From contig CXTY01000005.1 of the NCBI GenBank assembly GCA_001404055.1, forward strand, positions 372,001 to 436,000: a DNA stretch of 64,000 nt. Direction: 5' to 3'. This stretch comes from Roseibium album. Its GTDB lineage: Bacteria > Pseudomonadota > Alphaproteobacteria > Rhizobiales > Stappiaceae. The notes beneath the pieces are model-generated. The model had not been told where the DNA came from. It saw nothing but the letters and a program-made list of their open reading frames with translations, and searched no databases. The first letter of the stretch is position 1; the number at the start of each line of letters is the position of its first letter. The translations under genes were made by a program, and so were the position numbers. Shown piece by piece: positions 52,294-57,255 of this stretch.

Positions 52294-52627
52294 AAAGCAG
52301 GGACAAGCTTGTTGCATATGAGGCATGCGGCCAATTTCGCTTGACATTTGCAACCGGCCCGACGATATAGCGCCCTGCAATCGCTGCCGCGTGAGTAGCT
52401 GCGTGCTAACAGCCTGATGGATTTCAAACGCAGGCGAGCCGCTTAATTGATTGCAATTATCTGAGCCCGGACGGGGCTCAACCAGTTCCCATGTCACGCG
52501 AGGGTCTGGCGGCAAAGAGATCGTTTTCTGAATGAAAGCGGCTGCCGCGAACCAACATCAAACCGCAAGGGCGAGCCTTTGCGGTCCACAAGCGTATTGT
52601 GTTGCGCTTGAAACAAGGAAATTATTT
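52294..52627. other. Leader of the DEAD-box helicase gene
   Basis: 334 bases without a protein gene. It contains hairpins at 52462-52480 (TGAGCCC/GGGCTCA, 5-base loop) and 52562-52585, the latter just upstream of the ribosome site AAGGA (52616-52620). The long structured leader fits post-transcriptional control of a helicase gene. No promoter is clear. Confidence 0.55.
52562..52585 (+). promoter_or_regulatory. Hairpin upstream of the DEAD-box helicase ribosome site
   Basis: ACCGCAAGG (52562-52570), 5-base loop, CCTTTGCGGT (52576-52585), one bulged base. It ends 30 bases before the ribosome site and could modulate translation or mRNA stability. Confidence 0.45.
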
Positions 52628-53926
52628 TTGACCGACTTTCAAAGCCTGGGACTTTCTGAAGACCTCCTGTCAGCTGTCGCCGAAAACGGCTATGACGCAC
52701 CGACACCAATTCAGGCAAAGGCCATCCCCCTGATTCTTGATGGCAAGGACCTGATGGGATTGGCTCAGACAGGAACAGGCAAAACTGCAGCGTTTGGCTT
52801 GCCGCTGATCGACAGACTTCTTGAAGAAGACAAGCGCCCCCTGCCAAAAGGGACACGGGCACTCATACTTGCCCCGACCCGTGAACTCGTTAATCAGATC
52901 GCCAAGAATCTGGTTTCATTCGTGAAGAAAACACCACTGCGGGTGACTTCGGTCGTTGGTGGCGTTTCCATCAATGCGCAGGTCAAGCGCCTTTCCAGAG
53001 GGACAGACATTCTGGTTGCGACACCTGGCCGGCTTCTGGATCTGGTTGATCGCAAGTCCGTCGACCTGGGAACAGCTTCCTACCTCGTTTTGGATGAAGC
53101 CGATCAGATGCTCGATCTCGGATTTATTCATGCTCTGCGCCGAATTGCAGGACTGGTTTCCGACGATCGCCAGACGCTTCTGTTCTCGGCCACCATGCCA
53201 AAACAGATCAATGTGCTGGCGAAATCTTATCTGAAGAACCCGGAACGGGTTGAAGTTTCTCCTACCGGGCGTACCGCTGACAAGGTTACCCAGTCCGTTC
53301 ACTTCCTGGAGCAAAAGACCAAGGGAAGTTTCCTGGTTGACCAGTTGCAGTCGAAGCCTGATGGCATGTCGCTTGTCTTTTGCCGTACCAAACATGGCGC
53401 TGAGAAGCTCATGCGAAAGCTTGCGCAAAGTGGGATTGCCGCGGGGTCTATTCACGGAAACAAAAGCCAGAACCAACGAGAGCGGGCAATCCGGGATTTG
53501 CGTGATGGTTCCATCAAGGTGCTCGTGGCAACCGATGTCGCTGCGCGCGGAATCGATATTCCGGGTGTAAGCCATGTCTATAATTTCGAGTTGCCGGAAG
53601 TTGCGGAAGCTTATGTGCACAGGATCGGCAGGACTGCCCGGGCCGGTGCTGAAGGCGAAGCCATTGCGCTGTGTTCACCTGAGGAAATCGGTTTGTTCCG
53701 GCAGATCGAGAAACTCATAGGTCTGGACATAACTGTCGCCAGCGGCGAGGTGCCACCGATGTCGGCAGCGGCAGCACGCACGCAGCGCGGTGGGCGCAAC
53801 AAGGGTGGCGGTAAGCCTTCCGGCAAGAAGCCATTCCAGAAAAGATCGTCTTCTGGCGACAACGACAACAAGTCCCGCGCAAGGCATCAAAGACGTCGGC
53901 AGGGTGGTCGCAGGAACGCGGCCTAA
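52628..53926 (+). CDS. DEAD-box RNA helicase (RhlE-like)
   Basis: An ATP-dependent RNA unwinding enzyme of 432 residues, in cold response, ribosome assembly or mRNA decay. Motifs in order: Q motif F.SLGLSEDLLSAVAENGYDAPTPIQ, Walker A AQTGTGKT, PTREL, GG, TPGR, VLDEADQML, SAT, then domain 2 with ARGIDIP and HRIGRTARAG. The C-terminal 60 residues are basic and glycine-rich (KGGGKPSGKKPFQKRSSS, RRRQGGRR), an RNA-binding tail. The start is TTG 52628: it follows AAGGA at 7 bases and gives the correct Q-motif spacing; a start 96 bases upstream is in frame but not conserved. Confidence 0.95.
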   Translation: MTDFQSLGLSEDLLSAVAENGYDAPTPIQAKAIPLILDGKDLMGLAQTGTGKTAAFGLPLIDRLLEEDKRPLPKGTRALILAPTRELVNQIAKNLVSFVKKTPLRVTSVVGGVSINAQVKRLSRGTDILVATPGRLLDLVDRKSVDLGTASYLVLDEADQMLDLGFIHALRRIAGLVSDDRQTLLFSATMPKQINVLAKSYLKNPERVEVSPTGRTADKVTQSVHFLEQKTKGSFLVDQLQSKPDGMSLVFCRTKHGAEKLMRKLAQSGIAAGSIHGNKSQNQRERAIRDLRDGSIKVLVATDVAARGIDIPGVSHVYNFELPEVAEAYVHRIGRTARAGAEGEAIALCSPEEIGLFRQIEKLIGLDITVASGEVPPMSAAAARTQRGGRNKGGGKPSGKKPFQKRSSSGDNDNKSRARHQRRRQGGRRNAA

Positions 53927-53969
53927 GCTTAAGTGCCTGCACTTGCTGCGCGCTTTTCAAAAAGAAAAA

Positions 53970-53993
53970 CACCGGGAAGTGGCCTTCCCGGTG
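53970..53993 (-). terminator. Hairpin CACCGGGAAG/CTTCCCGGTG with T run on the minus strand
   Basis: CACCGGGAAG (53970-53979), 4-base loop, CTTCCCGGTG (53984-53993); perfect 10-bp stem. On the minus strand it is followed by TTTTTCTTTTT, so it reads as an intrinsic terminator for leftward transcription; the plus-strand copy could also end the DEAD-box mRNA weakly. The same core recurs at 55001-55031. Confidence 0.65.
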
Positions 53994-54498
53994 CCAATTC
54001 GGTGATCGATGGATGTCCAGGTAGCCATAGCTGCCTGGGGATATGTAGAAGCTGTTTGAACCGACAGTCTTTGCCGCCGCTATCTGACTACCGCTCTAAA
54101 AACTTCCAATCCACGTGCATATAGGCGTTTCTGGCGCCCAATCAGTTTTTATTTTCGGGAAGTCGCGAAAAACTTATGAAAGTCCATCAAGGACTTGTTT
54201 GTTTTTGATCGCTCGCCCCGTTGGAAGTAAAAGTAATTTAGTTAACTTGGAACTGCAACCACAACCGGGATTTTCGCCTAGTGTGTGTGAATAACAAAAA
54301 ACTTGTTTTCTGTCAGGTAGTTATGTGAAAAATCGACTTGAAATCAATTTCAGTGATACGCCCAGTGGTTGTAGTGCGGTTGTATGTTTTGGAAATTTTG
54401 ATTTAAATTCAAAGAATTGGCTTGCATATCTTCTTTATTTATCCGGGTATTGAAAATTCTTATGCCCTGTAAATAGATGGAATTTTCAGGTTACCAAG
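53994..54498. other. Gene-poor AT-rich spacer downstream of the DEAD-box helicase gene
   Basis: No credible protein gene. It contains a strong hairpin CCAGGTAGC/GCTGCCTGG (54017-54038) and an intrinsic terminator (54180-54207). From about 54210 to 54690 base composition is markedly AT-rich compared with neighbours; no ORF has family resemblance. Confidence 0.55.
54180..54207 (+). terminator. Intrinsic terminator in the helicase downstream spacer
   Basis: AAGTCC (54180-54185), loop ATCAA, GGACTT (54191-54196), then GTTTGTTTTT. With the hairpins at 53970 and 54017 it may close the 3' UTR of the helicase transcript or a separate short RNA. Confidence 0.65.
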
Positions 54499-54688: not shown

Positions 54689-54717
54689 TTGACCTTACCG
54701 TAAGGTGAGGTTATCTC
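54689..54717 (+). promoter_or_regulatory. Candidate promoter with embedded palindrome, upstream of RNA candidate
   Basis: TTGACC (54689-54694), 17-base spacer, TATCTC (54712-54717). A perfect palindrome ACCTTAC-C-GTAAGGT (54692-54706) covers the -35 end and spacer, the position of a repressor operator. The -10 matches only three positions, so strength is uncertain. Confidence 0.45.
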
Positions 54718-54723
54718 GGCTCC

Positions 54724-55041
54724 ACAGGTTTATGGTTAACAGGCTCTGAAGAGTCGCAAGCCTGACAAAAACCCAGACTTGAATCTGGGAGAATGTGCAC
54801 GTCGGCTCCATCAGGACCACCGACCCCATACATGGTTGTTTGCTCATTGTGGGCAGGCAAACCCCTTGTGGCGCGGGCAATTGCGCAATGGCATGCGGAT
54901 GCGCGGCGCGTCCGCACTCTCTGCTGTGTGCTTTTGATAACCGCAACAAGTTGGCCCCCCACTTTTGCCAGCTTGATACGACCCATCGGCCACAAGGCTA
55001 CAGCACCGGGAAGGTCTCCTTCCCGGTGCTGTTTGTTTTGG
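54724..55041 (+). ncRNA. Candidate structured non-coding RNA, about 315 nt, family unknown
   Basis: No protein reading frame on the plus strand ends before the terminator, but the sequence folds into nested helices. CCTTGTGGC (54864-54872) pairs with GCCACAAGG (54989-54997); inside it GGCAA (54876-54880) pairs with TTGCC (54965-54969), and GCGGATGC/GCGTCCGC (54895-54915) forms a hairpin. Before them are hairpins CAGGCT/AGCCTG (54740-54764), CCCAGA/TCTGGG (54772-54789), GTCGG/CCGAC (54801-54824) and GTTTGC/GCAAAC (54838-54862). The 3' end is a perfect 14-bp terminator at 55001-55031. A promoter lies at 54689-54717. It is not SRP RNA, tmRNA or RNase P RNA: their core motifs are absent. 6S RNA cannot be excluded. 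Confidence 0.5.
55001..55041 (+). terminator. Strong intrinsic terminator of the candidate RNA
   Basis: CAGCACCGGGAAGG (55001-55014), loop TCT, CCTTCCCGGTGCTG (55018-55031), then TTTGTTTTG. Perfect 14-bp stem with T-rich tail. It shares the CACCGGGAAG core with the hairpin at 53970-53993. Confidence 0.9.
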
Positions 55042-55128: not shown

Positions 55129-55569
55129 TCAGAGTTTTCGACTTTTCCGAACCCGCTGAAAATTTGCAGTAAAAAGACAAATCATGCAGATCAGCACTAG
55201 CAGGGACGTCGATAGATAAGGGGGGATAATGCAGCCTTCACCTATGGCGCTGATATGTACCACACCTTTTGAAACAGACGGGACTAGCCAATTATACGGC
55301 ACAACAAACGCCGCGAATGCTGATAGTCCCGCTGATAATACGCAAAGCCACATATTTTTGAGAAACAGCGAAGCTGCGACAAATGCGATAAAGGTAATTC
55401 CTGGTACTGATCCAAATGTCAGGAGAAAATCACCGATCTGATTGAGCGGGCCATCAGATGGGCTCCACTCAGGGCGAACCTTGTCGCACACTTCCGCGAT
55501 AGCGGAAGTGTTGGAGCCAAGAAGAGCAGCCACTGCCACTCCATAATATTTTGGGGCGAAAGGCACCAA
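55129..55569 (-). CDS. Conserved hypothetical small membrane protein
   Basis: A 146-residue protein with an N-terminal export-like helix (VAVAALLGSNTSAIAEVCDK), followed by three further hydrophobic helices (about 45-70, 75-95, 115-137). CDKVRPEWSPSDGP and the AIGEGCIIPP motif are, as far as I remember, shared by unnamed alphaproteobacterial membrane proteins; cysteines C28, C75, C112 could pair. The reading frame begins at TTG 55569 or GTG 55566, and no good ribosome site is seen. It follows the ETF-QO stop by 10 bases on the same strand, so it may be expressed with it by readthrough. Function unknown. Confidence 0.6.
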   Translation of the reverse strand: MVPFAPKYYGVAVAALLGSNTSAIAEVCDKVRPEWSPSDGPLNQIGDFLLTFGSVPGITFIAFVAASLFLKNMWLCVLSAGLSAFAAFVVPYNWLVPSVSKGVVHISAIGEGCIIPPYLSTSLLVLICMICLFTANFQRVRKSRKL

Positions 55570-55578
55570 AATGACTAA

Positions 55579-57255
55579 TCACATGTTCGGATAGTTCGGC
55601 CCGCCGGCGCCTTCAGGTACTGTCCAGGTGATGTTGCGGTTCGGGTCCTTGATGTCACAGGTCTTGCAATGCACGCAGTTCTGCGAATTGATCTGGAAGC
55701 GTGGCGCATCTTCACCTTCTTCGATCCACTCGTAAACACCTGCGGGACAGTAGCGGTTTGACGGACCTGCAAAAACATCATGCTCAGATGATTTCTGGAG
55801 AGCGTCGTCCATCACCTTCAGATGGATCGGCTGATCTTCTTCATGATTGGTGTTGGAAAGAAACACGGAGGACAGCTTGTCGAAGGTAACCACGCCATCG
55901 GGTTTCGGATAGTCGATCTTCTTGCAGTCTTTGGCGGGCTTGAGGGTCTCGGAATCCCGTTTGCCATGTTTCAGGGTGCCGAAGAAGGAGAAGCCAAACA
56001 GTTCGTTGGTCCACATATCCAGGCCGCCGAGGGCGACGCCTATGGCTGTTCCATATTTTGACCAAAGCGGCTTGGCATTGCGAACCTTCTTGAGGTCCTT
56101 GCCAATTGGGCTCTCGCGCCAGGCTGTGTCGAAGTTAGTCAACTCGGTGTTTGCTTCACCCCGGCCAATTGCAGACATGACTTCTTCTGCTGCAAGCATG
56201 CCGGAGAACATCGCATTGTGGGAGCCCTTGATGCGCGGCACGTTTACCATGCCAGCAGAACAACCCATCAGCAGTCCGCCAGGGAAGGAGAGTTTCGGTA
56301 CTGACTGATAACCACCTTCGGTGATTGCACGTGCGCCATAGGAAATGCGTTTGCCACCTTCAAACGTGTCCCGGATCGCCGGGTGCGTCTTGAACCTCTG
56401 GAATTCGTCAAACGGGGACAGCCAGGGGTTCTCGTAATTGAGGTGCAGAACAAAGCCGACGGCGACCTGGTTGTCCTCAAGATGATACAGAAAGGAACCG
56501 CCGCCGGTTTTGCCATCAAGCGGCCAGCCAAATGAATGCTGAACGAGGCCCGGCTTGTGCTTTGACGGGTCAACCTGCCAGAGTTCCTTGATGCCGATGC
56601 CGAATTTCGGCACGTCGCAATCCTTGTCGAGCTCAAATTTGTCGATCAACTGTTTGGCCAGCGAACCGCGCGCGCCTTCACCGATAAGGGTGTATTTGCC
56701 GCGCAGTTCCATACCGCGCGTGAACATGGCATTGGGCTTGCCGTCCCGGCCAATACCCATGTCACCGGTGGCGACGCCAACCACATTGCCGTTGTCGTCA
56801 TAAAGCAGTTCAGCGGCTGCAAAGCCCGGATAAATTTCAACGCCGAGCGCTTCGGCCTTTTCTGCAAGCCAGCGGCAGACGTTGCCCAACGAAACAATAT
56901 AATTGCCGTGGTTGTTCATCAGCTTGGGCATGAACATGTTCGGAAGTCGTAAAGATCCTGCTGGCCCCAAAACGAGAAAATGATCAGCGCTGACAGCTGT
57001 GTTGATCGGGGTGTCTTCGTTGCGCCAGTCAGGCAGCAACTGGTCCAGGGCAATCGGGTCAATCACAGCCCCCGAGAGAATATGAGCACCAACTTCGGAG
57101 CCTTTCTCCAGAACGACGACGCTTAGCTCTTCGCCTTTTTCGATTGCGATCTGTTTCAGCCGGATGGCCGCTGCCAATCCTGCCGGTCCTGCACCGACAA
57201 TGACGACATCAACATCCATGCTTTCGCGTTCGCCAAGCGCTTCCTGTTCGCTCAT
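55579..57255 (-). CDS. Electron-transfer flavoprotein:ubiquinone oxidoreductase
   Basis: Passes electrons from ETF (fatty-acid and amino-acid oxidation) to ubiquinone at the inner membrane. It has 558 residues, as expected. The FAD-binding GxGxxG is DVVIVGAGPAGLAAAIRLK; the ubiquinone-binding region and the C-terminal 4Fe-4S ligands are in YCPAGVYEW and NCVHCKTCDIKDP. The start ATG 57255 is preceded by GGAGGGAG. etfA and etfB are not adjacent. A palindrome TTACGT-TT-ACGTAA lies in the divergent gap (57581-57594). Confidence 0.96.
   Translation of the reverse strand: MSEQEALGERESMDVDVVIVGAGPAGLAAAIRLKQIAIEKGEELSVVVLEKGSEVGAHILSGAVIDPIALDQLLPDWRNEDTPINTAVSADHFLVLGPAGSLRLPNMFMPKLMNNHGNYIVSLGNVCRWLAEKAEALGVEIYPGFAAAELLYDDNGNVVGVATGDMGIGRDGKPNAMFTRGMELRGKYTLIGEGARGSLAKQLIDKFELDKDCDVPKFGIGIKELWQVDPSKHKPGLVQHSFGWPLDGKTGGGSFLYHLEDNQVAVGFVLHLNYENPWLSPFDEFQRFKTHPAIRDTFEGGKRISYGARAITEGGYQSVPKLSFPGGLLMGCSAGMVNVPRIKGSHNAMFSGMLAAEEVMSAIGRGEANTELTNFDTAWRESPIGKDLKKVRNAKPLWSKYGTAIGVALGGLDMWTNELFGFSFFGTLKHGKRDSETLKPAKDCKKIDYPKPDGVVTFDKLSSVFLSNTNHEEDQPIHLKVMDDALQKSSEHDVFAGPSNRYCPAGVYEWIEEGEDAPRFQINSQNCVHCKTCDIKDPNRNITWTVPEGAGGPNYPNM

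Follow-up and report, generated by a model that had tools for sequence, protein, structure and literature searches.

Bacterial trans-acting small RNAs can occur as sibling pairs, as do AbcR1 and AbcR2 of the Rhizobiales, and comparative genomics has revealed large ornate structured RNAs, such as GOLLD, ROOL and OLE, whose function was unknown at discovery. In the window, that is, the whole 64,000-nt stretch of Roseibium album DNA analyzed here, we identified two loci, RNA1 and RNA2, which are almost certainly genuine, previously undescribed structured non-coding RNA genes. Like AbcR1/AbcR2-type pairs, they appear to be paralogous, to have promoters and intrinsic terminators, and to expose C-rich unpaired motifs, but they are roughly threefold longer, have a multi-branched fold, lie divergently instead of in tandem, and show no Rfam similarity. 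With GOLLD, ROOL and OLE they share an extensive conserved multi-branch structure and invariant unpaired motifs, but they are smaller, occur in one genus and one neighbour, form a chromosomal divergent paralogue pair, and again lack Rfam similarity. 6S RNA (RF00013) resembles RNA1 in its long-range closing stem, its intergenic location and, as predicted for RNA1, its independent transcription, but it folds into one long hairpin interrupted by a central bulge, whereas RNA1 forms a three-way junction. A previous sequence-only reading of this DNA had kept 6S RNA as a possible identity of RNA1; this is now excluded, as the RF00013 model had no match in the region at gathering score or at E<=5 and the genome carries its own 6S gene on another contig (C17, 65.5 bits). 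A literature search found nothing on small RNAs of Roseibium or Labrenzia.

The sequence-only reading had proposed that the RNA1 locus specifies a hitherto undescribed structured RNA that has a promoter and a terminator of its own, and all elements that it named, including both strands of a long-range pair, a palindrome, a promoter pair and a terminator stem, were found at their positions (Table 1). Its proposal is now backed by the lack of an Rfam match, tree-aware covariation and conserved signals, from which transcription is predicted; it is thus supported for RNA1, and it missed both the minus-strand paralogue RNA2 and the genus-wide conservation. The 318-nt stretch folds at −144.5 kcal/mol, whereas 100 dinucleotide-shuffled versions gave −108.8 (sd 5.3), which corresponds to a z of −6.7, and RNA1 without its terminator had a fold z of −3.9 in the window and a mean z of −3.7 over 30 homologues. 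Ten of the 15 pairs in the terminator stem are G-C and a U-rich tail follows, so that RNA1 ends in a rho-independent terminator as expected of a stand-alone sRNA gene. The divergent arrangement of the two paralogues is unusual, and the genomic setting is otherwise ordinary. A 146-aa open frame without a Pfam match (55129-55569, minus strand) lies between RNA1 and ETF-QO.

Table 1. Positions in the window of RNA1, RNA2, their parts and the neighbouring genes.
Feature	Position	Strand	Remarks
RNA1	54724..55039	+	~310 nt; predicted transcript, beginning near 54724 and ending in the U tract of the terminator
RNA1 promoter	54689..54717	+	−35 TTGACC (54689-54694), 17-nt spacer, −10 TATCTC (54712-54717)
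Operator-like palindrome ACCTTAC-C-GTAAGGT, ACCTTACCGTAAGGT	54692..54706	.	Overlaps RNA1 −35 element and spacer
RNA1 5′ domain	54795..54825	+	GTGCACG motif and hairpin GTCGG..CCGAC; kept in typical RNA1 copies
RNA1 P1, 5′ strand CCTTGTGGC	54864..54872	+	Pairs with 54989-54997; invariant in RNA1 and relatives' RNA2
RNA1 P2 arm	54873..54944	+	Closing stem GCGG (54873-54876)/CCGC (54941-54944); outer arm variable, covarying
RNA1 P3 hairpin CAAGTTGGC/GCCAGCTTG	54947..54975	+	C-rich loop CCCCCAC; compensatory changes, 2 pairs significant in tree-aware test
RNA1 P3 strands	54947-54955 / 54967-54975	+	
RNA1 junction J3/1	54976..54988	+	3′ end is CCCATCG, invariant in aligned RNA1 and RNA2 copies
RNA1 P1, 3′ strand GCCACAAGG	54989..54997	+	Partner of 54864-54872
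RNA1 intrinsic terminator	55000..55039	+	15-bp stem (55000-55032), then TTTGTTTT; 4 stem pairs covary significantly
RNA2	53965..54228 (approximate ends)	-	Divergently transcribed paralogue, diverged in this genome; intact copies in 30 related genomes
RNA2 core	54117-54000	-	Covariance-model match, E 1.2e-7
RNA2 upstream region	54234..54294	-	Most relatives keep these elements at fixed distances
DnaA-box-like TTATTCACA	54294-54286	-	Upstream of RNA2
RNA2 upstream elements GGTTGTGGTTGC, TTAACTAAATTA	54266-54255, 54245-54234	-	
RNA2 terminator GGCACCGGGAAGGCCACTTCCCGGTG	53970..53995	-	T run after
DEAD-box helicase	52532-53926	+	Pfam-confirmed
ETF-QO	55579-57255	-	Pfam-confirmed

Both RNAs appear, from their sequence signals, to be transcribed from conserved promoters and to stop at intrinsic terminators. 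In RNA1, the promoter-like pair TTGAC[CG]-N17-TAnnnC keeps its spacing in nearly all of 30 homologues, and a generic sigma-70 scan did not list this promoter among its sites. For RNA2, the expression signals GGTTGTGATTGC and TTAAT[TC]TA stand at a fixed distance across relatives. The conserved promoter elements of both RNAs thus suggest two stand-alone genes. Most relatives retain the ACSTT..AASGT form of the RNA1 promoter palindrome, with compensating changes in some, such as ACCTTGC-C-GCAAGGT. The RNA1 site is the sole exact match to the palindrome consensus in the genome, and in a whole-genome regulon search two-mismatch matches were no commoner than the control. A repressor-type regulator could act on RNA1 through this palindrome over the promoter. 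A LiuR-like MerR site was considered as a candidate identity of the operator and was not confirmed; a MerR-type promoter, which requires a spacer of 19-20 bp, was rejected for RNA1, where the palindrome is conserved within a spacing of only 17 bp. Of 30 relatives, more than half keep a DnaA-box-like TTWTCCACA upstream of RNA2, and others have a related ATCCACA there; the box (TTWTNCACA) precedes the promoter elements of RNA2 by ~20 nt, and DnaA control of RNA2 is possible.

To delimit the distribution of the two RNAs, we used DNA searches and covariance models of the RNA1 core (R1) and of RNA2 (R2), the reach of the genome search being set by the first-look filter rather than by the covariance model. 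The DNA search found RNA1 homologues in 24 of 61 genomes, every one from the genus of the window, and R1 matched in 33/46 genus genomes and in 0/41 genomes of other genera in the family. Searching beside ETF-QO in unmatched genomes added three genus genomes (G022, G029 and G036), which brought RNA1 to 36/46 Roseibium genomes (counting strains filed as Labrenzia or Stappia) as well as G072, the only match from a neighbouring genus (29.9 bits, E 3e-7 over the 62 kb searched). RNA2 was found by R2 in 32/46 genus genomes, alone in five and together with RNA1 in 27, and as a rule each RNA has one copy per genome. In G022, the RNA1 core forms a tandem duplicate of nearly identical copies (L121, 1082-1220 and 1277-1415) with a 195-bp period. 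Beyond these, two model matches among 249 genomes of the order (E near 3e-4) were judged chance because the P1/CCCATCG signature was absent, as was the one outside match in a pattern search of 397 order genomes, which fell within a transporter-type open frame.

In most relatives RNA2 lies in opposite orientation ~0.5-0.9 kb upstream of RNA1, and their RNA2 has CCTTGTGG, CCCATCGACCACAAGG and a near-identical terminator in common with RNA1. R1 detected copies of RNA2 with E-values as low as 1.8e-7, and the window's RNA1 was matched by R2 at E 2.9e-6. Because the model of each one finds the loci of the other, RNA1 and RNA2 are taken as ancient paralogues that would define one new RNA family. The window's RNA2 retains promoter elements and terminator, with P1 and CCCATCG altered and much of both lost, from which it follows that at least one of the two RNAs can be dispensed with. 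Throughout the genus, hardly a letter changes in the RNA2 terminator GCACCGGGAAGGCCACTTCCCGGTGC, whereas that of RNA1 covaries.

The core common to both RNAs is a three-way junction. Its closing stem P1 (CTTGTGG/CCRCAAG) is invariant, its two arms covary, keeping their pairing while their sequence changes, and the linker CCCATCG that joins the last arm to P1 is likewise invariant and unpaired. RNA1 comprises P1 (CTTGTGGC/GCCACAAG), P2 (GCGG/CCGC plus a variable outer arm), P3 with its CCCCCAC loop, and the linker ending in CCCATCG; RNA2 comprises the same P1, a second arm with the apical loop CGGCGG, a third hairpin, and then CCCATCG. Even the most diverged variants of RNA1 are able to build P2 and P3 from different sequence, such as GCGA/TCGC in G022, and the 5′ domain (GTGCACG, GTCGG..CCGAC) has been lost from them. 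GTGCAC (54795-54801), invariant and unpaired in typical RNA1 copies, is self-complementary, and dimerization of the RNA is possible.

A covariation analysis among relatives and an Rfam scan including 6S, both proposed in the sequence-only reading, were run. In a tree-aware simulation, which is our own approximation of R-scape and not R-scape itself, significance was reached by six RNA1 pairs, of which two lie in P3 and four in the terminator, and by four RNA2 pairs. An all-pairs test without the proposed structure found just one significant pair, in the terminator, and had little power with 30 close sequences; a refolded-null test was therefore used, which also addresses the circularity of deriving the structures from the same alignments as tested. 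Once the terminators were excluded and the tree-simulated null alignments folded afresh, covariation summed to 190 for RNA1 against a null of 6 (sd 13, maximum 42) and 166 for RNA2 against 6 (sd 11, maximum 32), and shuffle and slide controls likewise backed both. The long-range pair suspected earlier is the core stem P1, whereas the GGCAA/TTGCC pair placed inside it is rejected, since its bases are those that form the covarying hairpin P3. P1 is near-invariant, its variation being limited to U-A to U-G changes and the outermost inner pair, and because it almost never varies, covariation neither supports nor opposes it; this putative long-range stem rests on the invariance of both strands and their conserved spacing.

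The Rfam 15 scan yielded nothing at gathering thresholds in the RNA1 region, and the matches that it gave below them were at chance level, in agreement with the earlier view that RNA1 is not SRP RNA, tmRNA or RNase P. None of the Rfam 15 families, including tmRNA, SRP, RNase P and alphaproteobacterial sRNAs, reached gathering score in 20 homologous loci; a relaxed search gave weak sub-threshold matches only. We report, new to Rfam, a covariation-backed RNA family in the marine genus Roseibium.

Our explanation as a whole, two divergently transcribed paralogous non-coding RNA genes with one core that would act in trans, has about an even chance of being correct; that they are a pair of trans-acting regulatory RNAs with one partner in common is offered more tentatively. 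The P1/CCCATCG module would bind this partner, be it protein or complementary sites in mRNAs; one common partner is suggested because P1 and CCCATCG are invariant in both RNAs. The RNA-specific parts would set the targets of each, namely the CCCCCAC loop and GTGCACG domain of RNA1 and the CGGCGG loop of RNA2, and different outputs are suggested because the loops are RNA-specific. CCCAUCG and the CCCCCAC loop of RNA1 are the candidate contact sites. Antisense or sponge pairing between RNA1 and RNA2 was also considered; same-genome duplexes were no better than mixed ones (permutation P 0.80), and mutual antisense control is therefore disfavored. The pair offers a tractable test case, with paralogous RNAs, one invariant core, divergent arms, and single loss or decay in some species, so that partner and targets can be searched for by comparing strains with both, one or neither.

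Between trans-acting regulation and a role purely as a protein scaffold, we favor the former. As a protein-sequestering or scaffold RNA, 6S-like or the core of another ribonucleoprotein, the invariant stem and linker would bind protein with no base-paired targets; the invariance of both P1 strands and CCCATCG is as expected of a protein-binding site and the fold is large and multi-branched, but no known protein-binding RNA family matched and 6S lies elsewhere in the genome, and we regard this reading as unlikely. Less likely still, a single ribonucleoprotein system would contain RNA1 and RNA2 as its two RNAs, with the three-way junction that they share (invariant P1, CCCATCG) docking a dedicated protein; if true, this would be a functional RNA class without described precedent.

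A cis-acting element of the ETF-QO or DEAD-box helicase 3′ end, for example an antisense or convergent-transcription device, would fit the conserved position of RNA1 beside ETF-QO across homologous genomes, within ~70 nt in some. We consider this improbable, as both RNAs have conserved predicted promoters of their own and are kilobases apart in some genomes; in the window ~540 nt separate the end of RNA1 from the ETF-QO stop codon, in relatives too RNA1 ends before the gene, and cis action on ETF-QO is therefore unlikely. That the locus is a mobile-element remnant or neutral relic surviving by chance is very improbable: RNA2 is decayed in this genome, and some genomes have one RNA only, a tandem duplicate or visible remnants, but compensatory substitutions and invariant motifs throughout the genus show selection on the locus, and there is usually one copy of each RNA per genome. 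Viral contigs held no credible copy either; two viral pattern matches fell within open frames and were judged chance, and a stricter pattern search of viral sequences found no RNA1 or RNA2 homologue. A short protein-coding gene has a negligible chance, for frames in the window reach 135 aa, but, in line with the earlier judgement that no frame is credible, none retains its start, stop or extent among the homologues, roughly a third of which lack any plus-strand frame of 45 aa over RNA1, many indels are not in threes, and the Pfam search gave no match over RNA1, a protein-family match being what the sequence-only reading had held would speak against it.

Elsewhere in the window, a glycine riboswitch aptamer (RF00504, 11142-11234, plus strand, 66.2 bits) is the only Rfam match at gathering level.
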